Shown piece after piece: positions 3,498-38,151 of a stretch of DNA of 38,151 nt (positions are counted from its first letter, which is position 1; each line of letters opens with the position of its first letter). The notes below the pieces were generated by a model. It was given only the letters and a program-made list of their open reading frames with translations. It had not been told where the DNA came from and did no database searches. The position numbers and the translations under genes are program-made. The stretch comes from Methylococcaceae bacterium (lineage in GTDB: Bacteria; Pseudomonadota; Gammaproteobacteria; Methylococcales; Methylomonadaceae): assembly GCA_013141375.1 (NCBI GenBank), contig JABFRC010000280.1, positions 1 to 38,151 on the forward strand. Direction: 5' to 3'.

Positions 3498-3664
3498 TTG
3501 TCCGATGATATGCAGTAAGATTCGGTAACATTCGACATTTTATGCAGTAACTTTAAAGCAGTAAAAAAGTTTCTGCATTTTAAGCCTAACCCCGCTGATT
3601 TGTTGGCCGCAAAAAAAATCAGTCAGATTCTAATAACAAGTATCTAACTGATTCATCAAATTTA

Positions 3665-23028: not shown

Positions 23029-24378
23029 ATGAATCCATACATTTCCAGAGAAATTATTTATCCCTTGCAAGAGAAATTATTGCATCGACCAACCTTCCCT
23101 TACCTGGCCGAACTGGAAAAATCGCAATGGCTGTCGCGCGCCGATATTGAAGCTTTGCAGCTGAAAAAGCTGCAAACGCTACTTAAAACTGCTGAAGCAC
23201 ATAGCCTCTGGCATAGTCAACGTATCAAAGAATCCGGCATTAGCATCGATCAACTAAGTTTCGAAGAATTCAGAAAACTGCCGACGATGACCCGAGCCGA
23301 TGCCCAACAACACGGGCAGGACATGGTCTGGCATGGAGTGCCAGGCGGGACGTTTCGTTACACAACCGGTGGCTCCAGTGGTCAACCGCTGATTTTTTAT
23401 TTTGGCCGAGCCAGACAAGCCGCCGATGCCGCCGGACGCATTCGTGCCAGACGCTGGTGGGGTGTTGATGTCGGAGAGCCGGAAGTCTATTTGTGGGGCG
23501 CGCCGGTTGAATTGAATAACACCGACAAAGTTAAAACCATTCGTGACCGATTACTGAATCAGCTCGTCTTAAACGCCTTTGCCATGTCGCCGGAACGCAT
23601 GGCGACTTACTTAACAGCCATTGAAAAGTTCAAACCTCGTTGTATTTACGGCTATGCCAGTAGCGTTGCGTTATTGGCACGTTTCGCAAAGCAGCAAGGC
23701 AAGCCAATTTCGCTACCCAGCCTGAAAGTGATTTGCACCACCGGCGAGCCGCTTTATCCCGAGCAGCGCCAGATTATTTCCGAAGTTTTTAATGTGCCTG
23801 TGTCCAATGAATTCGGAAGTAGGGACGCCGGACTCATTGCCCACGCCAACAATCATCAACAAATGCTGTTGTTGAGTGAAAGCAATATCCTTGAAGTCCT
23901 GGATGCAGAAGGCAATCCAGTCAAACCGGGGGAAATGGGTGAGGCCGTGATGACGGGACTATGTTCGGAAGCCCAGCCCTTCATACGCTACCGCACCGGC
24001 GACATGGTCAAATTATCGGCCGATGTTGATAAAGATGGCCGCGGCCTGCATGTCATTGAAGAAGTCATTGGCCGCAGCACGGACTTTTTGGTACATGAAA
24101 ACGGCTCGATCATTCATGCCTTGGCCGGCATTTATATTCTCAGAGAAACACCGGGCGTCGAACAATTCAAGCTTATTCAACATGCCATTAATGAGTTTGA
24201 AATTCTGATTGTGGCCAATAAATTTTGGGAACACTCCTCAATGCCTGCCATAGAAAATAAAGCTAAAGCCCGTTTCGGTGCGGCTTGCAAAGTCGATGTA
24301 AAACTTGTAGACAGCATACCTCCAGAAGCCTCAGGCAAAATCAGACAGGTGGTTTCTAAAGTGCAGCCAGTTTTCTGA
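23029..24378 (+). CDS. CapK/PaaK-like adenylate-forming enzyme
   Basis: A 449-residue member of the phenylacetate-CoA ligase branch of adenylate-forming enzymes. Motifs are the ATP loop FRYTTGGSSGQPLIFYF, the EFGSRDAGLIAH segment, RYRTGDMVKLS, and the C-terminal ASGKIRQV with its lysine. Close relatives named CapK occur inside polysaccharide clusters, where their exact reaction is mostly unproven; aromatic acid activation is less likely, since no phenylacetate degradation genes are near. It follows the GT4 gene by 12 bases, so it is probably co-expressed for surface polysaccharide work, perhaps activating an acyl substituent. That last point is inference. Confidence 0.85.
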   Translation: MNPYISREIIYPLQEKLLHRPTFPYLAELEKSQWLSRADIEALQLKKLQTLLKTAEAHSLWHSQRIKESGISIDQLSFEEFRKLPTMTRADAQQHGQDMVWHGVPGGTFRYTTGGSSGQPLIFYFGRARQAADAAGRIRARRWWGVDVGEPEVYLWGAPVELNNTDKVKTIRDRLLNQLVLNAFAMSPERMATYLTAIEKFKPRCIYGYASSVALLARFAKQQGKPISLPSLKVICTTGEPLYPEQRQIISEVFNVPVSNEFGSRDAGLIAHANNHQQMLLLSESNILEVLDAEGNPVKPGEMGEAVMTGLCSEAQPFIRYRTGDMVKLSADVDKDGRGLHVIEEVIGRSTDFLVHENGSIIHALAGIYILRETPGVEQFKLIQHAINEFEILIVANKFWEHSSMPAIENKAKARFGAACKVDVKLVDSIPPEASGKIRQVVSKVQPVF

Positions 24379-28759: not shown

Positions 28760-30028
28760 TCAATCCTGATCATGGCCATGTTTTTTGGTTAACCAAGCCA
28801 TTGCGGATGATACAAATAGCCCAAATACAATCACGATGGTGTTCACCGCAAACCCCACCTTAATCATTAAAGCATAAGCGCCAAGCATCATTAAAATACT
28901 CAAGTTTTCATTGAAATTTTGCACCGCGATTGAGTGCCCCGAGCCCATGAGTTGATGGCCGCGATGTTGCAATAACGCATTCATGGGGATCAAAAAACTG
29001 CCGGCCAGGGTGCCAATCACCAACAACATTATCACCGCCATACGCCAATCAGTGACGTATACCATGCCAAATACAACCAATCCCATGGCGATACCTAAAG
29101 GCAATACTTTCACGGCATGCGCCAATGGCACAGCCTTGGTTGCTACTACAGAACCAATGGCTAAACCCACCGCGACAACTGCAGTCAATTGAGTTGCTTG
29201 CTCCAGATCAAGCTTTAGCGCCAATGCCGACCAAGCGAGAATAATAAAACGCAAGCTGGTTCCGGCGCCCCAAAATAATGAAGTGACTGCAAGAGAGACT
29301 TGGCCTAATGGATCTTTCCATAAAAGCAGGAAACTTTGCCAAAAATCCGCTAACAAAAACCCCGGTGACCGATTCCGTAAAACGTGTTCAATCGGTAGCT
29401 TGGGAATATAAAAATTAAGTATCGCTGCGACAAAATAAAGCCCCAGAGTGACAAAAATCGCAAATTCAGGCGCGGTATCAATGCCGCCATTAAATTCAAG
29501 TCCGCCCAGTTGCTGGACGACTTGGGCCTCTACCCGATGACCTAACAGTAAGCCGCCAAAAATGGCACCTAAAATAATGGCCAAAACAGTCAAGCCTTCC
29601 ATCCAGCCATTGGCCCAGATCAATTTATCAGCAGGTAGCCATTCGGTAAGAATGCCATATTTAGCAGGCGAATACATCGCAGCGCCGATACCGACAAAAC
29701 CATAAGCAATCAGTGGATGTAAACCCAGTAACATGGCTAAACATCCGACTATCTTGATCGTATTGCTAATAAACATGACACGACCTTTCGGTAATGCATC
29801 GGAGAAAGCGCCAACAAATGGTGCAAGCACGATAAAGGCGAACACGAAGAATTGTTGTAATACCGGTGTTTGCCAGGAGGGGGCATCTAGGTGTTTGAGT
29901 AGGGCTATTGCCGCGAATAAAAGCGCGTTATCCGCCAGTGATGAAAAAAATTGTGCTGCAAGAATGGTATTGAAACCGCGATTCATGAGACTTAAAACCC
30001 TAAGTAAAGCTTTAGAAACCAGCATCAT
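28760..30028 (-). CDS. lplT: Lysophospholipid transporter LplT (MFS)
   Basis: A 422-residue inner-membrane carrier of the major facilitator superfamily with about 12 membrane helices. It matches LplT at many diagnostic places: AAQFFSSLADNALLFAAIALLK at the first helix, FAPFVG-like LAPFVGAFSDALPKGRVM, AAMYSPAKYGILTEWLP, LIWANGWMEG, TSLFWGAGTSLRFI, and the late IPMNALLQHRGHQLMGSGHSIAVQNFNEN. In E. coli LplT flips lysophospholipids inward for reacylation by Aas, which is not in this window. The first methionines are uncertain; translation may begin at the internal Met15 (29986). It is convergent with the PAS-GGDEF gene and divergent from the multicopper oxidase gene. Confidence 0.92.
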   Translation of the reverse strand: MMLVSKALLRVLSLMNRGFNTILAAQFFSSLADNALLFAAIALLKHLDAPSWQTPVLQQFFVFAFIVLAPFVGAFSDALPKGRVMFISNTIKIVGCLAMLLGLHPLIAYGFVGIGAAMYSPAKYGILTEWLPADKLIWANGWMEGLTVLAIILGAIFGGLLLGHRVEAQVVQQLGGLEFNGGIDTAPEFAIFVTLGLYFVAAILNFYIPKLPIEHVLRNRSPGFLLADFWQSFLLLWKDPLGQVSLAVTSLFWGAGTSLRFIILAWSALALKLDLEQATQLTAVVAVGLAIGSVVATKAVPLAHAVKVLPLGIAMGLVVFGMVYVTDWRMAVIMLLVIGTLAGSFLIPMNALLQHRGHQLMGSGHSIAVQNFNENLSILMMLGAYALMIKVGFAVNTIVIVFGLFVSSAMAWLTKKHGHDQD

Positions 30029-30155: not shown

Positions 30156-30395
30156 CTATTTCAACGAGCCCAGCGCATTAAATTTTTATCCTGAACGAGT
30201 ATTGGACAACAGCGGTCACTAATCTTCCGTGCTGGTGAAAACAAAGCTAATACTCACTTCCCGTTTGAGCAATAACTACATTTAAAATACCGGGTAAGTA
30301 CGTTTTTAGTAACGGTTGATATAAAAAATCCAGCTATCCGTGCTGATACGAATTAGTCGTAACTTTTGCTCGTTTATATTCCGGAGGATATATCC

Positions 30396-32429
30396 ATGGC
30401 TAAACCAAAACTTACATCTGCACAATTTTATGCTTTACGTTTTACCGATGAAATCGCATTTCCAAAGATAATAAGAGTGGGGACCACCCGCAAGCGGGTA
30501 CTTATTAAACAGGCGTTGATCAATTTACATTCTGCGTTGGAAGATACGCCAATCTGGTGCTACGCCGTCAAATCCGGCACAACGGAAATCATTAACCCCA
30601 GCTTCGAAGTTGAAAGCGGTGTAACTTCCAAATTTGAATGGGTAAATCAACTGGCGGGACAAAACTTACCGATAACCGCTGCCACCGTAAAATACCTGGA
30701 AGTTGACGGTGCGAGCGTTATCCCGCAAAACAGCCCTGGTGCGTTGGCATTAACCGTAAACCAGACGGTTGATTTAGGCGCGCGTAAAGCCGATGAAACC
30801 TTTCTGCCTTTAAATCAGATTCCACCGATTGCAGTAACGCATTTGCATGGTGGCTATACCGAAGCCAATTCCGATGGCTGGACTGAAAACAGCATCTCTC
30901 CCGGCCAGTTGCAACTGGATCAATACAGTAATAAACAACCCTCCACCCTGATCTGGTATCACGATCACGCCATGCATATTACCCGTCTGAATGTGTATTC
31001 AGGTTTGGCCGGCTTTTATTTTATTCGTGACAATGATGACCGACGGGTTATTAATGACTTAAATTTACGCAGCACACCCACTGAACAACGTCCCAAATAT
31101 GAGCTTCCGCTCTTGATTCAAGATTGCAATCTGGATGTGGATATTGCCGGCAATATCGCCAGCACACTGTTGCATAAGGTTGAGTCCGGAGAAGGTCCAA
31201 TGGAGTTTTTTGGACCTTACACCCTGGTAAATAAAAAGATTTGGCCAAAATGCACCGTTAAACGTCGGCAATATCGACTGCGTCTACTGAACGGCTCGAA
31301 TGCCAGAACTTATCGCTTAACCTTACTAGCCGACAATGATGTTAATAAAAAAGTTGATTGGTTCAGTATCGCCAAAGTCATCGGTACCGATGGCGGCTTG
31401 TTGGCCAATCCTATCAATCCTGATGGCGATCTAGTGCTCGCGCCCGCTGAACGGCTCGATTTGATTGTCGATTTTGCTGCGGTCAATGCACAAACACTGA
31501 CAGTAGTAAACACGGCCCCTGCTCCCTATAACGGCAATGACTTACCGCTTGTTCCAAGCTTAGGCGAAGCCACTGATTCAACAACGCTTAGCCTGCGAGT
31601 ACGCTATCCGGAAATAATGCGCTTTGATTTAACCGGAGTTGCCCAAGCCCCGAAAGCCATTCCCGCCTTATCGAGTAGCTTTCGCCGGATTGTTCATGAG
31701 GCCGTTGATGCCGATCCTGGAGAGCAAGTCATTGTACTGCCTGATACTGGGGTGCCTGGCCATCACAAACATCGATATGTTGCCTTGGTAGAAGAGTTAC
31801 TCTCAGCAACTGACACCACAGCGGTACTGACTTTACGGGAACTACTGCCGTACACCCCGGTTGCAGGCGTAACGCCGATGGAGCGATTGATTGAAATTAC
31901 CGAGCCCGATCCTGTCAATCCAGCGGCATTAGTCACCAAAACCTATCAAACCGCCGCGAAGATGTTTCATGAAAGTGTTAATTTCGTCGGCAACCTGGGG
32001 GAAATCGAAGTATGGAAGGTTATTAATCTGTCGCCTGATACCCACCCACTGCACATTCATCTCAGCCAGTTACAGGTCATTGGACGAGTAGTAGCATCAA
32101 ATCCCGCGACTATGATTCCTGATCCTGCAACCTTGGACTGGCTGGATTTATCTGCACCGGTTTCCGTCACCTTGGATACGGAACAAGCCATCGTCGAAAG
32201 CGACCGGGCTTGGAAAGATGTCATTCGTATTGATCCGGGTCAGCTGGTAAAAATTGCCGTGCCCCTGGGAACGATTGATCCGCTAACCAACACTATCAAA
32301 GCAGAAGGTTTCAGCGGCAGATATATGTATCATTGCCATCTTCTGGAGCATGAAGATCACGACATGATGCGCCCCTTTGTCGTATTGGACAAAGCAATCG
32401 CAGCGTTAATGCCCCATCATCAACATTAA
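30396..32429 (+). CDS. Multicopper oxidase (CotA/phenoxazinone synthase-like)
   Basis: A 677-residue laccase-type oxidase that would couple one-electron substrate oxidation to reduction of oxygen to water. All copper motifs are present: HLHGG (His149/His151), WYHDHAMH (His189/His191), HPLHIH (His550, 553, 555) and YHCHLLEHEDHDMM (His646, Cys647, His648, His652, axial Met657 region). It is longer than B. subtilis CotA (513 residues), nearer to phenoxazinone synthase. There is no signal peptide, so it is probably cytoplasmic or released otherwise. I chose ATG 30396 because GGAGG at 30383-30387 sits 8 bases upstream; the frame's earlier TTG adds ten residues without support. Substrate unknown. 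Confidence 0.93.
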   Translation: MAKPKLTSAQFYALRFTDEIAFPKIIRVGTTRKRVLIKQALINLHSALEDTPIWCYAVKSGTTEIINPSFEVESGVTSKFEWVNQLAGQNLPITAATVKYLEVDGASVIPQNSPGALALTVNQTVDLGARKADETFLPLNQIPPIAVTHLHGGYTEANSDGWTENSISPGQLQLDQYSNKQPSTLIWYHDHAMHITRLNVYSGLAGFYFIRDNDDRRVINDLNLRSTPTEQRPKYELPLLIQDCNLDVDIAGNIASTLLHKVESGEGPMEFFGPYTLVNKKIWPKCTVKRRQYRLRLLNGSNARTYRLTLLADNDVNKKVDWFSIAKVIGTDGGLLANPINPDGDLVLAPAERLDLIVDFAAVNAQTLTVVNTAPAPYNGNDLPLVPSLGEATDSTTLSLRVRYPEIMRFDLTGVAQAPKAIPALSSSFRRIVHEAVDADPGEQVIVLPDTGVPGHHKHRYVALVEELLSATDTTAVLTLRELLPYTPVAGVTPMERLIEITEPDPVNPAALVTKTYQTAAKMFHESVNFVGNLGEIEVWKVINLSPDTHPLHIHLSQLQVIGRVVASNPATMIPDPATLDWLDLSAPVSVTLDTEQAIVESDRAWKDVIRIDPGQLVKIAVPLGTIDPLTNTIKAEGFSGRYMYHCHLLEHEDHDMMRPFVVLDKAIAALMPHHQH

Positions 32430-32881: not shown

Positions 32882-34351
32882 ATGAGTAGATCGATCTATC
32901 CGATACTTGGCCTGACGCTGACCTTATCAGTTACAGGCTGCGCAATCTTCAATCCCGAACCGTTAACGGCGACTGCTAACGAATTGGATGTTGCCAACAT
33001 CAGAACATTGGAATTCTCAGGCACCGGTCATTGGTATCAGTTTGGACAGGCGCCTAACCCTTCCCTGCCCTGGCCGGATTTTGAACTGAGCAGCTATACC
33101 GCTGATATCAACTATGTAACTTCGTCAGCACGTGTACAAACGACGCGTAAACAAATTATCGAGCCGGATCGTCAACGTCCGGTACCCACTGAGCAAAAAG
33201 CCGATCAATACATCAACGGCAACACAGCATGGAATCTTGCGCGTCCAGCCAATGCCGCTCCGGATGCAGCACCCGTTGCCTCAGCTCAACCCACAGCCGT
33301 GGAAGAACGCACCGCTGAAATTTGGTCAACACCCCAAGGATTTTTAAGAGCTGCTCAAGCCAACAATGCCAAGTCTAAGACTAGCCCTGCTGGAACTGAA
33401 GTATCGTTTACCGTAGGCGGCAAGTACCGTTATATCGGCACACTAAATTCAAACAAAACCGTCGCACGCGTTCAAACCTGGATTGATAACCCGGTACTTG
33501 GCGACACACTGGTCGAAACAAAGTTTCTGGACTATCAGGTTTTTGACGGTGTTAAATTTCCAAGCCATATCGTTCGCAGCATTGGCGGACACCCGGTACT
33601 GGATCTGAATGTCACTAAAGTAAAAACAAATCTGGCCGCCGAACTGCCTGTGCCTGACGATATTGCCAGCGCCAAACCGGCAGCAGTTACCGTAAAAGCA
33701 GATAAGTTAGCGACTGGCGTTTATTATCTGACTGGCGGTACGCATCACAGCGTAGCCATTGAGCAAAATAATCATGTAGTGGTTGTCGAGGCGCCTCAAA
33801 ATGAAGAACGTTCACTGGCAGTAATCGCCAAAGTTAAGGAACTGTTTCCTAACAAAGCCATTAAATTTTTGATTAACACCCATGCCCATTTTGACCATTC
33901 AGGCGGCTTGCGAACTTTTGTAGATGAAGGTTCAACGATTGTGACTGAGCAATCAAATCAACCGTATTATGAGAAAGTGTGGTCGGCACCAAGAACACTT
34001 AATCCTGACCGGCTTGCCAAATCTAAAAAACCGGCAAAATTCGAAACGTTTACTGACAAAATCTTAATTTCGGACGGCAGTCGCAAGATAGAAGTGCATT
34101 CCATTGCCGGAAACAGTCACAACGATGCTTTCGCATTAGTCTACTTGCCCAAAGAAAAGATTTTAATCGAAGCCGATGCATACACACCGCCAGCGGCCAA
34201 TGCGCCTGCGCCGACATCATTGAATCCCTACACGGTAAATCTGTATGACAACATCCAAAAACTAAACTTGGATGTTGATCAAATTGCCGCTTTGCATGGG
34301 CCGCGCGTAGTTAAACTTGACGACCTCAAAAAAGCTCTCGCTGTTAAGTAA
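32882..34351 (+). CDS. Metallo-beta-lactamase-fold lipoprotein
   Basis: A 489-residue lipoprotein. The signal peptide ends in a lipobox before Cys20 (LSVTGC). Residues about 40-270 form a region without a recognised name that resembles substrate-independent N-terminal parts of periplasmic MBL hydrolases. The MBL domain occupies about 275-485, with the zinc motif HAHFDH at 334-339 followed by SGGL, GNSHND as the next ligand histidine, EADAY for the bridging acidic residue and a final LHGPR histidine. It should be a zinc hydrolase tethered to a membrane facing the periplasm. The substrate is unknown. GGAG precedes the ATG and a strong hairpin follows the stop, so it is probably a single-gene transcript. 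Confidence 0.88.
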   Translation: MSRSIYPILGLTLTLSVTGCAIFNPEPLTATANELDVANIRTLEFSGTGHWYQFGQAPNPSLPWPDFELSSYTADINYVTSSARVQTTRKQIIEPDRQRPVPTEQKADQYINGNTAWNLARPANAAPDAAPVASAQPTAVEERTAEIWSTPQGFLRAAQANNAKSKTSPAGTEVSFTVGGKYRYIGTLNSNKTVARVQTWIDNPVLGDTLVETKFLDYQVFDGVKFPSHIVRSIGGHPVLDLNVTKVKTNLAAELPVPDDIASAKPAAVTVKADKLATGVYYLTGGTHHSVAIEQNNHVVVVEAPQNEERSLAVIAKVKELFPNKAIKFLINTHAHFDHSGGLRTFVDEGSTIVTEQSNQPYYEKVWSAPRTLNPDRLAKSKKPAKFETFTDKILISDGSRKIEVHSIAGNSHNDAFALVYLPKEKILIEADAYTPPAANAPAPTSLNPYTVNLYDNIQKLNLDVDQIAALHGPRVVKLDDLKKALAVK

Positions 34352-34361
34352 ATTTAGTTCC

Positions 34362-34389
34362 GTCGAGGTAGAGATTTCTCTACCTCGAC
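34362..34389. terminator. Perfect 13-bp hairpin after the MBL lipoprotein gene
   Basis: GTCGAGGTAGAGA (34362-34374) pairs perfectly with TCTCTACCTCGAC (34377-34389). It lies 10 bases after the stop codon. There is no trailing T run, so its role as terminator is likely but not certain. The remaining ~260 bases to the next gene hold no gene I can support. Confidence 0.55.
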
Positions 34390-34650
34390 AGCGCCTCCTG
34401 GCTTTTAGCAAGCCTGCCCAATCAAATCGGAATCAACAAAAAAACATGCTGCCCTCTGTGTGATTCATAGAGAAAAACTCCCATTTTCTGGAACACACTA
34501 AACAATTAACTGTATTGTTTATAAGCGTTTCGACGTCGCAAATTCGTCAGCTAGCTAAATCATCAGTATGTTGTTATCTTGTCAATCTAGCATTCCTAGT
34601 CTTCCGACTAACCTCTAAAACCGTGCTTACTTTTTCTTGAGGAACCGTAG

Positions 34651-34917
34651 ATGGACACGATCGTTTATTTATTGACTGGAGCATGTAAGATCATGCTGCT
34701 ATTGGTCGGATTAGTCATGTTATTCGGTGGCGGAATATGCATAGTAATGGATATTAGTATTTTTAGTTCCAACCCCGATTCTGACGCATTTTTAATTATA
34801 GGGATTGCCGGCGTAGTAACGTTTGTGGGCTGGAAATTAACGCAATCAGCACTTTCAACCGTCAAATCTTCTTCAAAAAATAATCACACCACACATCTAA
34901 ACGATTGGGAAGACTAG
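34651..34917 (+). CDS. Small two-helix membrane protein
   Basis: An 88-residue protein with two clear membrane helices (about residues 8-32, CKIMLLLVGLVMLFGGGICIVM, and about 46-66, FLIIGIAGVVTFVGWKLT) and a polar C-terminal tail. I do not recognise a family. GAGGA lies about 9 bases before the ATG. Only two bases separate its stop from the ATG of the following lipoprotein gene, so the pair is translationally coupled and it is the first gene of a four-gene operon with the Lgt-like and radical SAM proteins. Confidence 0.75.
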   Translation: MDTIVYLLTGACKIMLLLVGLVMLFGGGICIVMDISIFSSNPDSDAFLIIGIAGVVTFVGWKLTQSALSTVKSSSKNNHTTHLNDWED

Positions 34918-34919
34918 AA

Positions 34920-35600
34920 ATGAAGCAAGATTATCAATGGGGTATTCTGATCGTTTTATTTGTTACATTGATCGCAGGCTCATTCGGTTGCGCCACCCTA
35001 ACCGCGACAACGGCCGCAAAAAACAATGAGTTTTATACCAACCCCGTAATCAGCGATGAAATCATTGCCATCGGTAAACCTGATGCTGCACTGTCCAAAG
35101 CGATTGGGCACGACCACGTTGTTGCTTTTCTCGGCAAAAAAAATACCTACATGCTCTATAAAGGCGGTGAAGAACTGGAACACATCTCGACATTACATCT
35201 GTATGGCAAACGCCTGGTTATTGATACCACCACACATAAAAATCTCTATGTAAAGGATAAGCAAGTCTGGGGCTATATTGTTCTTACTTATGCCAAAGGC
35301 CTAGAAATCACACCCGAAGAACAGGAAGAGCTAATAAAGTCTGGCTTTAGTCAACCGGAATATAGGACATACCAGAAAAAAATCGAAATCGCGGGAATTA
35401 TCACACCGGCAATTCAACTGACTGATCAGCAGATAGCAACATTAGCCACGACCCGACCATTCAATCTTTATAATCCAAGAGACGTCAAAGCGCCCTCAAA
35501 TATAGGGGCAACAATGATGATACCCTTTGCAGTCGCCGCAGATATAGTCTTATCCCCTTTCTATTTAGGCGTTGGCTTGATTTTGCTGATTGCCCTTTAA
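34920..35600 (+). CDS. Putative lipoprotein of unknown function
   Basis: A 226-residue protein. The N-terminal hydrophobic segment ends at Cys24 (LIAGSFGC), a slightly non-standard lipobox, so lipid attachment is likely though not certain. The middle (about 40-165) is soluble with no motif I know. The C-terminus carries a hydrophobic segment with PFAVAADIVLSPFYLGVG, a pattern seen in small YceK/YidQ-type lipoproteins. I chose ATG 34920 because an upstream TTG reading overlaps the previous gene. It is followed after 3 bases by the Lgt-like gene. It could be a client of that enzyme, which is inference from position. Confidence 0.75.
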   Translation: MKQDYQWGILIVLFVTLIAGSFGCATLTATTAAKNNEFYTNPVISDEIIAIGKPDAALSKAIGHDHVVAFLGKKNTYMLYKGGEELEHISTLHLYGKRLVIDTTTHKNLYVKDKQVWGYIVLTYAKGLEITPEEQEELIKSGFSQPEYRTYQKKIEIAGIITPAIQLTDQQIATLATTRPFNLYNPRDVKAPSNIGATMMIPFAVAADIVLSPFYLGVGLILLIAL

Positions 35601-35603
35601 ACC

Positions 35604-36356
35604 ATGTTCCCACTCACCAACAATCCGCACTTTGTTCACGCACTATTTGAAGCGGCCGCACTATCGATCGGCGCTTTCTATTACCGTTATTTATTAAAAC
35701 GCGAAGGCGTGTCTGTCAGTGACTTGCTTAGCGGCCAACGCTATGCAGTATTGCTCGGCTGCATTTTCGGAGCGGCAATCGGCAATAAATTAGTATTCTG
35801 GATTGAAATGCCGCATTTACTACCGCTGTATTGGAACAAGCCCGAAGTGTGGTTTGCCGGGCAATCCATGGTGGGCGGATTGCTGGGCGCTCTTATTGGC
35901 GTGGAACTGGCGAAAAAGCTTTCCGGCATGCGCCACTCAACGGGCGATGCGTTTGTGTTTCCTGTGTTACTGGGATTAATCATCGGCCGCATAGGATGCT
36001 TTATTGCCGGTTTAGCAGACGGCACCTATGGCCTGCCAACGACGCTCCCATGGGGTGTAGATTTTGGCGATGGCATAGCGCGGCATCCCACTCAGCTTTA
36101 TGAAATCGCGTTTGCCTCCCTGTTATGGCTGATATTGCTAAGTTTACGCAAACCCTGGTCTGTGCAATCCGGCTTGTTGTTTAAGACGATGCTAAGCAGC
36201 TATCTCCTTTGGCGTTTGCTGATTGATGGCTTAAAACCCGTGCCGTTTGACTATGGCTTTGGCTTATCCGGCATTCAGCTGGTTTGTTCTATTGCGTTGG
36301 TGTTTTATGCACCGCTACTCTTTGCGCAGTGGCGCAAACTAAAGGAAACTGCATGA
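35604..36356 (+). CDS. Lgt-like (prolipoprotein diacylglyceryl transferase family) membrane protein
   Basis: A 250-residue polytopic membrane protein with about seven helices. It carries Lgt-family signatures GRIGCFIAGLADGTYG (128-143) and RHPTQLYE (160-167). E. coli Lgt moves diacylglycerol from phosphatidylglycerol onto lipobox cysteines. Two residues important there differ here by my alignment: the His103 position (SFHGG) reads Val90 (SMVGG) and the Asn146 position reads Cys132. It is also shorter than typical Lgt (about 290). So it is probably an Lgt paralogue with altered chemistry and not the housekeeping enzyme. Its TGA overlaps the ATG of the radical SAM gene (ATGA), and it follows a lipoprotein gene by 3 bases. 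Confidence 0.88.
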   Translation: MFPLTNNPHFVHALFEAAALSIGAFYYRYLLKREGVSVSDLLSGQRYAVLLGCIFGAAIGNKLVFWIEMPHLLPLYWNKPEVWFAGQSMVGGLLGALIGVELAKKLSGMRHSTGDAFVFPVLLGLIIGRIGCFIAGLADGTYGLPTTLPWGVDFGDGIARHPTQLYEIAFASLLWLILLSLRKPWSVQSGLLFKTMLSSYLLWRLLIDGLKPVPFDYGFGLSGIQLVCSIALVFYAPLLFAQWRKLKETA

Positions 36357-37792
36357 GCAGAAAAAATCGTCCCTGGTTGTTTTACGACACCACCGCATCA
36401 GTATGCGCCCAATGTTTACGCCAAGTAGAAGCCAAAATCATCATCAAAGGCGATGAAGTGTTTTTGGAAAAATGGTGCCCGGCGCACGGCTTCGAGCGCG
36501 TGTTGATTTGCGATGATGCCGAGTACTACCGGCTTTGCCGCGAAGTTTATGTAAAGCATCCGGAGATGCCGGAGCAGTTCAACACCCAGATGCTCTACGG
36601 CTGTCCATACGATTGCGGATTGTGTCCCGATCACATGCAGCATTCGTGTTTATCGGTGGTTGAGATCACCGACAACTGCAACCTGACTTGTCCGGTGTGC
36701 TACGCCGAATCTGCGCCACATCAGCAACATCGCCCCTTAAGCGACGTTATCGCCATGCTCGATGCAGTAGTGGCAAACGAAGGTGAGCCGGATGTGGTAC
36801 AAATTTCCGGCGGCGAACCGACTTTGCATCCGGATTTTTTTGCGATACTCGATGCCGCCAAAAGCCGTCCGATTCGGCACCTGATGATTAACACCAATGG
36901 CATTAGCATCGCAACCGACTCGGCATTCGCAGAAAAACTGGCGAGCTATTCGCCGGGCTTGGAAATCTATCTGCAGTTTGATTCGCTCAACGACGACACG
37001 CTCAAAAAAATACGCGGCGCAACCCTGGCTGACGTGCATCAGCGTGCACTGGAACGACTAGAAGCCCTGGGCATCTCTACAACCTTGGTGATGACCGTAT
37101 TACCCGGCATTAACGATGACCAGATTGGCGATGTGATTCAACATGCCTTGCAATGGCAATGTATACGCGGCGTTACCTTGCAGCCCGTCAGCGACGTCGG
37201 TCGGCTCACTATCGAAAACAAAACCAAGCGCTTGACGGTAAGCGGCATACGTCGAGCAATTGCCGAACAATCTGAGTTATTCAGCAAAGAAGATGTCGTG
37301 CCCGTGCCCTGCAACCCGGACACTTTGGCAATGGCTTATGCGCTAAAGCTCAACGGCAAAGTCATACCATTAACTCGGCATTTAGGACCAGAAGCCTTGC
37401 TGGCCGGGCCGCGCAATACCATCGTTTTCGAACGCGATCCTGCTCTTAAGGAACAAGTATTCAAATTGTTTTCCACCAACCATTCGCCGGAATCGCAAGC
37501 CTCTTGCCTGTCCGATTTACTGTGTTGCCTGCCGCGCGTGGCTGCACCGGCACTTAATTACCAAAATGTGTTCCGTGTGCTAATCGTGCAATTCATGGAC
37601 ATCCATAACCTGGATTTGCGCGCACTAAAAAAATCATGCATCCACTTCGCCCAAGCAGACGGCAAAATGATTCCGTTCGAAGCATACAATTTATTCTATC
37701 GAGGCAAGCGCATTGAACAAACAAAAGCCATCCAGGCAGAAATTGGTTTGAATGTGTTGAAAAGGAAGGCTGAAGCGAGTATTGCCCAATGA
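36353..37792 (+). CDS. Radical SAM protein, MJ0619/tetraether lipid synthase-like
   Basis: A 479-residue protein. It has an N-terminal cysteine site (CAQC at 18-21, CPAHG from 42), then GCPYDCGLCPDH with Cys84/88/91 and Cys99, the radical SAM motif CNLTCPVC (Cys109/113/116), the SAM-binding SGGEPT, and cysteine pairs near the C-terminus (SCLSDLLCC). This layout matches what I recall of COG1964, the family of archaeal MJ0619, shown to join lipid chains as tetraether lipid synthase; exact function in bacteria is open. I start at ATG 36353, giving an ATGA overlap with the Lgt-like gene; a longer frame runs inside that gene. Coupling to an Lgt-fold protein suggests a lipid substrate, an inference. 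Confidence 0.88.
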   Translation: MSRKNRPWLFYDTTASVCAQCLRQVEAKIIIKGDEVFLEKWCPAHGFERVLICDDAEYYRLCREVYVKHPEMPEQFNTQMLYGCPYDCGLCPDHMQHSCLSVVEITDNCNLTCPVCYAESAPHQQHRPLSDVIAMLDAVVANEGEPDVVQISGGEPTLHPDFFAILDAAKSRPIRHLMINTNGISIATDSAFAEKLASYSPGLEIYLQFDSLNDDTLKKIRGATLADVHQRALERLEALGISTTLVMTVLPGINDDQIGDVIQHALQWQCIRGVTLQPVSDVGRLTIENKTKRLTVSGIRRAIAEQSELFSKEDVVPVPCNPDTLAMAYALKLNGKVIPLTRHLGPEALLAGPRNTIVFERDPALKEQVFKLFSTNHSPESQASCLSDLLCCLPRVAAPALNYQNVFRVLIVQFMDIHNLDLRALKKSCIHFAQADGKMIPFEAYNLFYRGKRIEQTKAIQAEIGLNVLKRKAEASIAQ

Positions 37793-38151
37793 TAAAACTA
37801 CCTTACTCTCTCGATATTATCTGAGCCTTGCTTTGCGCAAGGCACTTGTACTGCTGCAGCTGAGTTCGAACCAGCACTATGGCGGATGAAGTTGCCGCGC
37901 ATAACCGTTATCGAAATTGAAGAAATGGCGCAAGATCGTCAACGGTCGATCAAAATACGGACGGCTCCCAATTTAAACTTACCGTCAGTAATGTGAGACA
38001 TTTTTTCACCAAAGGATTGCAAGTAAAAAACACATTCGTAAAAACACCCAATACCGCCAAGCGGCGGGTGTCATCAATGGCATGGTGAGGACTACTCGCC
38101 AACCAACATCATGGGATAATACTCTCGCCTCCGATTTCAATTTTTAATCGT
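37793..38151. other. Gene-free right end
   Basis: About 360 bases with no frame I can support; short frames are all broken by stops. A small stem GCCTTG / CAAGGC (37825-37843) lies 32 bases after the radical SAM stop and may help end that transcript. ACACCC...GGGTGT around 38044-38071 is another weak hairpin. Nothing else is recognised. Confidence 0.4.

Follow-up and report, generated by a model that had tools for sequence, protein, structure and literature searches.

Why would a bacterium keep a gene with the fold of Lgt, the prolipoprotein diacylglyceryl transferase, directly upstream of a gene for a radical SAM protein resembling Tes (GDGT-MAS, MJ0619), an enzyme that joins lipid tails in archaea? 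The question is raised by contig JABFRC010000280.1 of a Methylococcaceae bacterium (assembly GCA_013141375.1), from which we analyzed positions 1 to 38,151 of the forward strand; this whole stretch of 38,151 nucleotides is referred to below as the window. Near its right end lie four open reading frames (ORFs), here named A to D, which an initial annotation had read as a plus-strand operon, and the ORFs, their spacing (2 bases between A and B, 3 between B and C) and the ATGA overlap of C and D at 36353-36356 were all found as it had placed them, together with the two cysteine motifs that it had quoted from D:

34651-34917, plus strand: gene A, ORF of 88 amino acids (aa), membrane protein
34920-35600, plus strand: gene B, ORF of 226 aa, with the lipoprotein-like N-terminus IAGSFGC
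35604-36356, plus strand: gene C, ORF of 250 aa, Lgt-fold membrane protein
35859-35879, plus strand: GQSMVGG of C, in place of GMSFHGG (the HGGL motif) of Lgt
35985-35999, plus strand: GRIGC of C, in place of the Lgt signature GRLGN
36353-37792, plus strand: gene D, ORF of 479 aa, radical SAM protein, Tes-like along its full length
36602-36634, plus strand: CPYDCGLCPDH of D, matching the N-terminal auxiliary 4Fe-4S ligands C73, C77, C80 and His of Tes
36677-36700, plus strand: CNLTCPVC of D, the radical SAM cluster motif CX3CX2C

The linkage of C and D across genomes is strongly supported; the chemistry proposed below is inferred. The conserved third part of the set is the small membrane protein A, not the lipoprotein B, and together C, D and A probably modify a membrane lipid in an undescribed way.

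The linkage was assessed in a sample of 398 genomes of the phylum that had not been chosen for D. At a threshold of E 1e-40, D occurred in 12 of them, the window's own genome included, and the same 12 carry C (118.8-394.9 bits), in every case upstream of D on one strand and, by the listed coordinates, no more than 817 bases away, which rules out chance adjacency; these genomes are spread over 8 family groups and are therefore not 12 independent cases. Eight weaker matches to C in genomes that lack D (75.1-79.9 bits) were rejected as canonical Lgt, with GM[S/A]FHGG and GRxGN in 8/8. A wider scan of a genome collection met D relatives at 285 loci, and the best 80 (D at 60-86% identity) were kept, namely 57 loci of Betaproteobacteria, 12 of Gammaproteobacteria, 6 of Pseudomonadota without a class, 4 of Myxococcia and 1 labelled Desulfovibrionia. 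C was present in 76 of these 80, on the same strand as D in 73 and on the opposite strand in 3, and 32 of 72 same-strand cases show an overlap of exactly 4 bases between the two genes; some loci double up, since L118 and L124, whose contigs have the same length, are probably one genome. Of the four loci in which C was not found, two (L046 and L063) hold less than 1 kb upstream of D in the stretch and two (L054 and L060) hold 10 kb. Of the two genes whose adjacency across genomes the initial annotation proposed to check, the Lgt-like gene thus stays beside D and the lipoprotein B does not, homologues of B occurring in just 3 of the 80 loci.

Within the window's own family, C was not found beside D in two genomes (G011 and G028), but both carry it elsewhere (132.9 and 372.8 bits), and in G028 D lies less than 1 kb from a contig end; canonical Lgt is all that is present in two others (G003 and G054), which lack a close D. 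D is patchy among relatives: leaving aside the window's own genome, a close D (65-70% identity) turned up in four of 60 related genomes and a divergent one in a fifth. The D of Dechloromonas is nearer to that of the window, at 78% identity and also in the tree described below, and this patchy spread together with closer relatives in Dechloromonas looks like horizontal transfer.

What kind of enzyme is D? Its Pfam matches are Radical_SAM and the zinc ribbon of the MJ0619/HMPTM family. Among NCBIfam models the best match is TrsS (NF045646) at 326.6 bits, below the cut-off of 490, a result repeated in the profile search of the window's own genome, where D again fell under the TrsS cut-off; the match to Tes (NF045702) reaches 262.2 of the required 450 bits. 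Among sequences of the Protein Data Bank (PDB) Tes is the best match (7TOL, E 1.9e-59, the runner-up having E 6.7e-7), and the D profile matches Tes at E 7.6e-78. An AlphaFold2 model of D (predicted local distance difference test (pLDDT) 81.1, predicted template modeling score (pTM) 0.84) superposes on Tes 7TOM with Z 44.4 over 411 residues at 3.3 Å and 30% identity, the next family following at Z 18.8, so that the comparison with the MJ0619 structure recommended by the initial annotation came out in its favor. Its assignment of D to the MJ0619 family stands as far as full-length kinship in sequence and fold is concerned and needs revising as to identity: D is a full-length relative of Tes that forms a separate lineage and is not Tes itself, below the cut-offs of both Tes and TrsS.

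The ligands of Tes, named for its rubredoxin site, N-terminal cluster and radical SAM cluster (PMC9433317), allow this kinship to be followed residue by residue. Conservation was read from 80 rows, the window plus 79 of the 80 loci, 56 of which entered the structure alignment. The rubredoxin ligands (C9-X2-C12-X20-C33-X2-H36 in Tes) are present in D as C18, C21, C42 and H45 in 28/28 aligned rows, and the N-terminal 4Fe-4S ligands as C84, C88, C91 and H94, the three cysteines being invariant in the 80 rows and all four residues in the 56. The C-terminal cluster region of Tes is altered, with V412 in place of M439, I411 of C438, S428 of C455 and E443 of C470, and C456, as C429 of D, is the sole C-terminal cysteine kept among those compared. 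D nevertheless has its own invariant cysteines in this part of the protein (Cys320, Cys391, Cys392 and Cys429 in 80 aligned rows), and Tes has no cysteine at the places aligned to the first three. More distant Lgt-linked relatives of D, in mycobacteria, Nonomuraea and L125, still have cysteines at the C455 and C470 places and none at 391-392. In the window's lineage the C-terminal cluster may therefore be retained on a changed set of ligands, as far as the sequences allow; residues 379-399 of the model have a pLDDT below 50, so that this cluster is not placeable from it.

In a tree of 28 rows, which held one true Tes, no acidobacterial Tes and no peptide maturase, the 23 Lgt-associated D proteins lie on one side of a branch (support 94/88), apart from Tes and from the rows linked to a methyltransferase, which do not form one group; the long branches of L125, Tes and L176 leave the deep joins unsure. 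D thus lies in one tree with Tes and TrsS-like enzymes. Neither of the two possible refutations named by the initial annotation, a placement of D in an unrelated peptide- or cofactor-modifying clade or a lack of conserved linkage to Lgt-like genes, came true.

Gene C poses the opposite case of a familiar fold stripped of familiar residues. It matches Pfam LGT (PF01790) at 91.9 bits (cut-off 24.9, E 5e-26) and falls far below the cut-off of the Lgt equivalog TIGR00544 (41.2 of 118.9 bits), and its model (pLDDT 93.5) superposes 234 residues on E. coli Lgt 5AZB at Z 14.0, against 7.3 for the next row. Structure and docking place Arg143, Tyr235 and Arg239 of Lgt around the phosphatidylglycerol site (PMC8689077, PMC4728403), and all three are kept in C as R129, Y200 and R204 in 69/69 rows (68 of the 76 loci in which C was matched, taken at more than 150 bits and at least 200 aa, together with the window; 50 of these 69 entered the structure alignment). 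His103 mutants and Asn146Ala of E. coli Lgt are dead (same sources), and in C the place of His103 is V90, Val in 69/69 rows, and that of Asn146 is C132, Cys in 69/69 rows. GRxGC accordingly occurs in 16/16 C-type rows, and 15/15 canonical Lgt rows have GRxGN plus HGG; one C-type row (L165) has HGG, located elsewhere in a long frame. Ten distant C rows have Ala, Glu, Leu or Val at the His103 place, three of them with a histidine three places ahead that might serve instead, and Glu151 of Lgt is not Glu in C, the aligned place, which is uncertain in this alignment of distant rows, holding Gly or Asp.

The window's genome encodes a separate true Lgt (278.7 bits), and this, with the residue losses, rules out C as a second ordinary Lgt. 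The description of C as Lgt-like therefore holds for fold and Pfam family, but C is no ordinary Lgt, His103 and Asn146 being replaced in every row checked. Pfam LGT conceals a family stripped of the essential residues of Lgt, and members of it are labelled "prolipoprotein diacylglyceryl transferase family protein" in public records.

The third component emerged from the small membrane proteins that lie beside C or D, in which a Gly-rich helix closes in Gly-x-Cys; in A of the window this is Gly28-Ile29-Cys30 (codons 34732-34740), at the outer end of the first hydrophobic helix. With the same rule applied to every ORF of 55-130 aa, 77 of 113 ORFs near C or D carry the motif against 7 of 249 control ORFs (Fisher p 6e-42, with related loci not independent), and an earlier start-codon rule gave 76/113 against 7/232. 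One of the seven motif-bearing control ORFs is an A-type protein itself, in L051, where from position 3656 onward a third small Gly-x-Cys protein stands apart from the C-D pair. At least one Gly-x-Cys protein was found in 63 of 79 full loci, and two or more in 14 of 93 loci. A family profile of A added 11 motif-less ORFs nearby, nine of them with a first-helix cysteine by eye, and matched a single control, the L051 protein; since the profile was built on motif-bearing sequences, its cysteine column is partly circular, which does not apply to the 11 motif-less additions. In 70 of 77 proteins the net charge is higher ahead of the helix than behind the cysteine, and in 4 it is lower; this bias places the cysteine on the outer side of the membrane. 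Family scans of the window's A against Pfam and NCBIfam gave no match; Pfam scans of two relatives gave one narrow pass, for DUF308 (26.9 of 25 bits), and one match below the DUF5671 cut-off.

B is ruled out as a core component: its homologues were seen only in the close relatives L041, L042 and L052, and the small membrane protein is the conserved part instead. At the remaining loci, lipoproteins were either unrelated or not recognized; in Collimonas (L077), C and D flank a lipoprotein-like gene with Sel1 repeats.

How far does the pairing extend? A search of plasmids matched 10 records, of which 9 were examined, and the pair was also found in records of Bacteroidota and Actinomycetota. In Persicobacter (Bacteroidota), C and D are accompanied by a 59-aa protein with the C-terminal sequence GTGICGSLLS. 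In Mycobacterium avium, M. branderi and Nonomuraea, an Lgt-family gene stands upstream of a divergent D, and the M. avium locus includes two small proteins with AGICTG and AGYCTG; no small A-type protein was recognized at the Nonomuraea locus. Relatives of D in Mycobacterium, Nonomuraea and haloarchaea do not retain the N-terminal 4Fe-4S ligands; in the actinobacterial L177, L178 and L181 the pair is present and D, lacking these ligands, keeps Tes-like C-terminal cysteines. L125 (3646-6845) holds a second divergent Lgt-like/Tes-like pair (113 and 217 bits) from the same family as the window, with a 241-aa ORF between the genes and one of the three N-terminal cysteines retained in D. In Mycolicibacterium vanbaalenii and four haloarchaeal records, a D relative is followed by a methyltransferase, with no Lgt annotated nearby; two of these methyltransferases were scanned and match DVU_1556 at 130-136 bits (cut-off 155). 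Several of the methyltransferase-linked relatives (L176, L179, L180, L182 and L183, from Mycolicibacterium and haloarchaeal plasmids) lie near DUF3179 or thiol-redox genes.

Set against characterized systems, D shares with Tes the entire fold, the rubredoxin C-X2-C...C-X2-H, the N-terminal Cys3-His and CX3CX2C, and differs in its changed C-terminal cysteine set and in its Lgt-like partner gene. TrsS is its best NCBIfam match, whereas the TrsS-like genes of Mycolicibacterium and the haloarchaeal plasmids, themselves below the cut-off, adjoin a methyltransferase and not an annotated Lgt. C shares with Lgt the fold, the Pfam family, Arg143, Tyr235, Arg239 and Arg-His-Pro-x-Gln-x-Tyr, but has neither His103 nor Asn146, GRxGC where Lgt has GRxGN, and a true Lgt elsewhere in the same genome. 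Mss, the bacterial membrane-spanning lipid synthase, belongs to a different protein family from D. It resembles D in the proposed activity, as a bacterial enzyme that couples fatty-acid tails (as cited in PMC11868695).

Starting from the observed genes, linkage, folds, residue losses and cysteine motif, we propose that the Lgt-like C, the Tes-like D and one or two Gly-x-Cys proteins A form a bacterial lipid-modification module, a reading whose chances we consider about even. C would bind phosphatidylglycerol, the putative donor, in the Lgt cavity and move or hold its diacylglyceryl group; the likeliest acceptor would be the conserved cysteine of A, located at the outer end of its helix much like a lipobox cysteine; and the 5'-deoxyadenosyl radical of D would take hydrogen off carbons of the acyl tails, its putative substrate, and then couple or alter the tails. 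As the thiol-activating histidine is lost in C, acceptor or activation must differ from normal lipoprotein lipidation; C would thus not follow the usual thiol transfer, and Cys132, or the A cysteine in another setting, may act. Genes for lipid handling nearby count in favor of the module: among the 80 loci, 32 have a homologue (above 150 bits) of the LplT-acyltransferase fusion of L043 upstream on the same strand, and 15 have one of Aas (same threshold), so that lysophospholipid handling is encoded next door. Family scans covered the L043 and L053 proteins, the former with major facilitator superfamily (MFS) and acyltransferase domains and the latter passing the Aas cut-off (966 of 886 bits).

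Several observations weigh against this proposal. His103 and Asn146, both essential in E. coli Lgt, are gone from C, which for that reason possibly performs no diacylglyceryl transfer at all. Acyl-tail coupling is a putative activity of D, and coupling by the Tes route is uncertain, since neither the Met439 ligand nor two or three of the cysteines in the C-terminal region of Tes have a counterpart in D. The strict motif yields no A in 16 of the 79 full loci, five of which have Ser-Leu-Cys or Thr-Leu-Cys in its place, and Leu precedes the cysteine in 45 of the 77 Gly-x-Cys proteins, unlike a normal lipobox, where Ala, Gly or Ser is usual at this position. Lastly, 27 of the 32 loci with an LplT-acyltransferase neighbor are labelled Betaproteobacteria, and no LplT-acyltransferase or Aas gene was found in the eight loci L157-L164; none was found in L121-L123 or L125 either.

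Might C and D instead make a free lipid, either membrane-spanning or a branched tail-coupled phospholipid, with the small proteins as subunits or anchors? We know of no such tail-coupled lipid from these mesophilic genera, and the idea leaves the conserved A cysteine and the Lgt fold unexplained, while the Tes C-terminal cluster region is altered in D. That D carries the whole Tes fold, and that the LplT-acyltransferase and Aas neighbors suit phospholipid remodeling, keeps this a tentative alternative, somewhat unlikely in our estimate, and membrane-spanning lipids have been suggested from bacterial Tes homologues by Zeng et al. (PMC8941075).

It appears still less likely that D modifies the Gly-x-Cys protein itself, as radical SAM peptide maturases do, with C anchoring or lipidating the product. 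After C, no partner is more constant than the small protein, which, as noted, is present in two or more copies in some loci, and many radical SAM enzymes target small peptides, some such families matching D at low score. D is nonetheless far nearer Tes than any listed peptide maturase (Z 44.4 against 18.7 for SuiB), it shares one tree with Tes and TrsS-like enzymes, though that tree held no peptide maturase, and the target cysteine would lie at the outer face, whereas no export signal was recognized by eye in D.

A bolder form of the proposed module, which we likewise hold improbable, is a second bacterial lipidation pathway in which C, without the Lgt histidine, would diacylglycerylate the A cysteine and D would join the tails of two such groups by C-C bonds; if true, the product would be a lipid bound to protein and coupled at its tails, possibly membrane-spanning, with the tandem A pairs of some loci supplying both halves. 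That C is non-catalytic and carries or flips lipid, or docks D at the membrane, is very unlikely: the replaced His103 and Asn146 and the loss of Glu at the Glu151 place, where changes inactivate E. coli Lgt (PMC8689077, PMC4728403), would fit such a role, but 37 columns are invariant across 50 rows, including Arg129, Arg160-His161, Tyr200, Arg204 and Cys132, suggesting an active site and not a scaffold.

Elsewhere in the window, no sigma-70-like promoter was found within 34200-38151, where shuffled sequence averages 6.6. Four other features were recorded:

23029-24378, plus strand: AMP-ligase of the PaaK/DVU_1553 type (102.8 bits against 300), directly after two glycosyltransferase-like genes (by eye)
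28760-30028, minus strand: lysophospholipid transporter LplT (547.9 bits, cut-off 297), 4.6 kb upstream of the operon on the opposite strand
30366-32429, plus strand: large multicopper oxidase, nearest to the O-aminophenol oxidase PhsA (398.7 bits, below the cut-off of 950)
34362-34389: perfect inverted repeat gtcgaggtagag-attt-ctctacctcgac, between a metallo-beta-lactamase-fold gene and the operon (by eye)

Has the pair been described before? In the open-license literature we found no study of an Lgt paired with a radical SAM or tetraether enzyme, and description elsewhere is possible; a search for COG1964 returned nothing relevant, and two papers (PMC7641849, PMC8939145) were set aside as unrelated to the pair. 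The initial annotation's view that no such bacterial system is described holds in that no study of the set was found and is qualified by one passing mention, in which about 3,500 bases with radical SAM and prolipoprotein diacylglyceryl transferase genes are absent from one of four Pseudarthrobacter single-cell genomes (PMC12010503). This stretch is a candidate, and may well be an instance, of the actinobacterial form of the pair, which has thus already been seen in print without being studied. Zeng et al. counted 456 bacterial Tes homologues, Proteobacteria included, in a main text that does not contain the words operon, neighbor or lipoprotein (PMC8941075), and Lloyd et al. noted bacterial homologues whose role was unknown.

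Bacterial homologues of Tes have thus been on record since 2022 without a confirmed function. One large lineage of bacterial Tes relatives now gains a constant partner, the Lgt-like protein, and a candidate acceptor, the Gly-x-Cys protein, through which the function of these enzymes becomes directly open to experiment in cultivated genera, among them Roseateles, Collimonas and Methylococcus.

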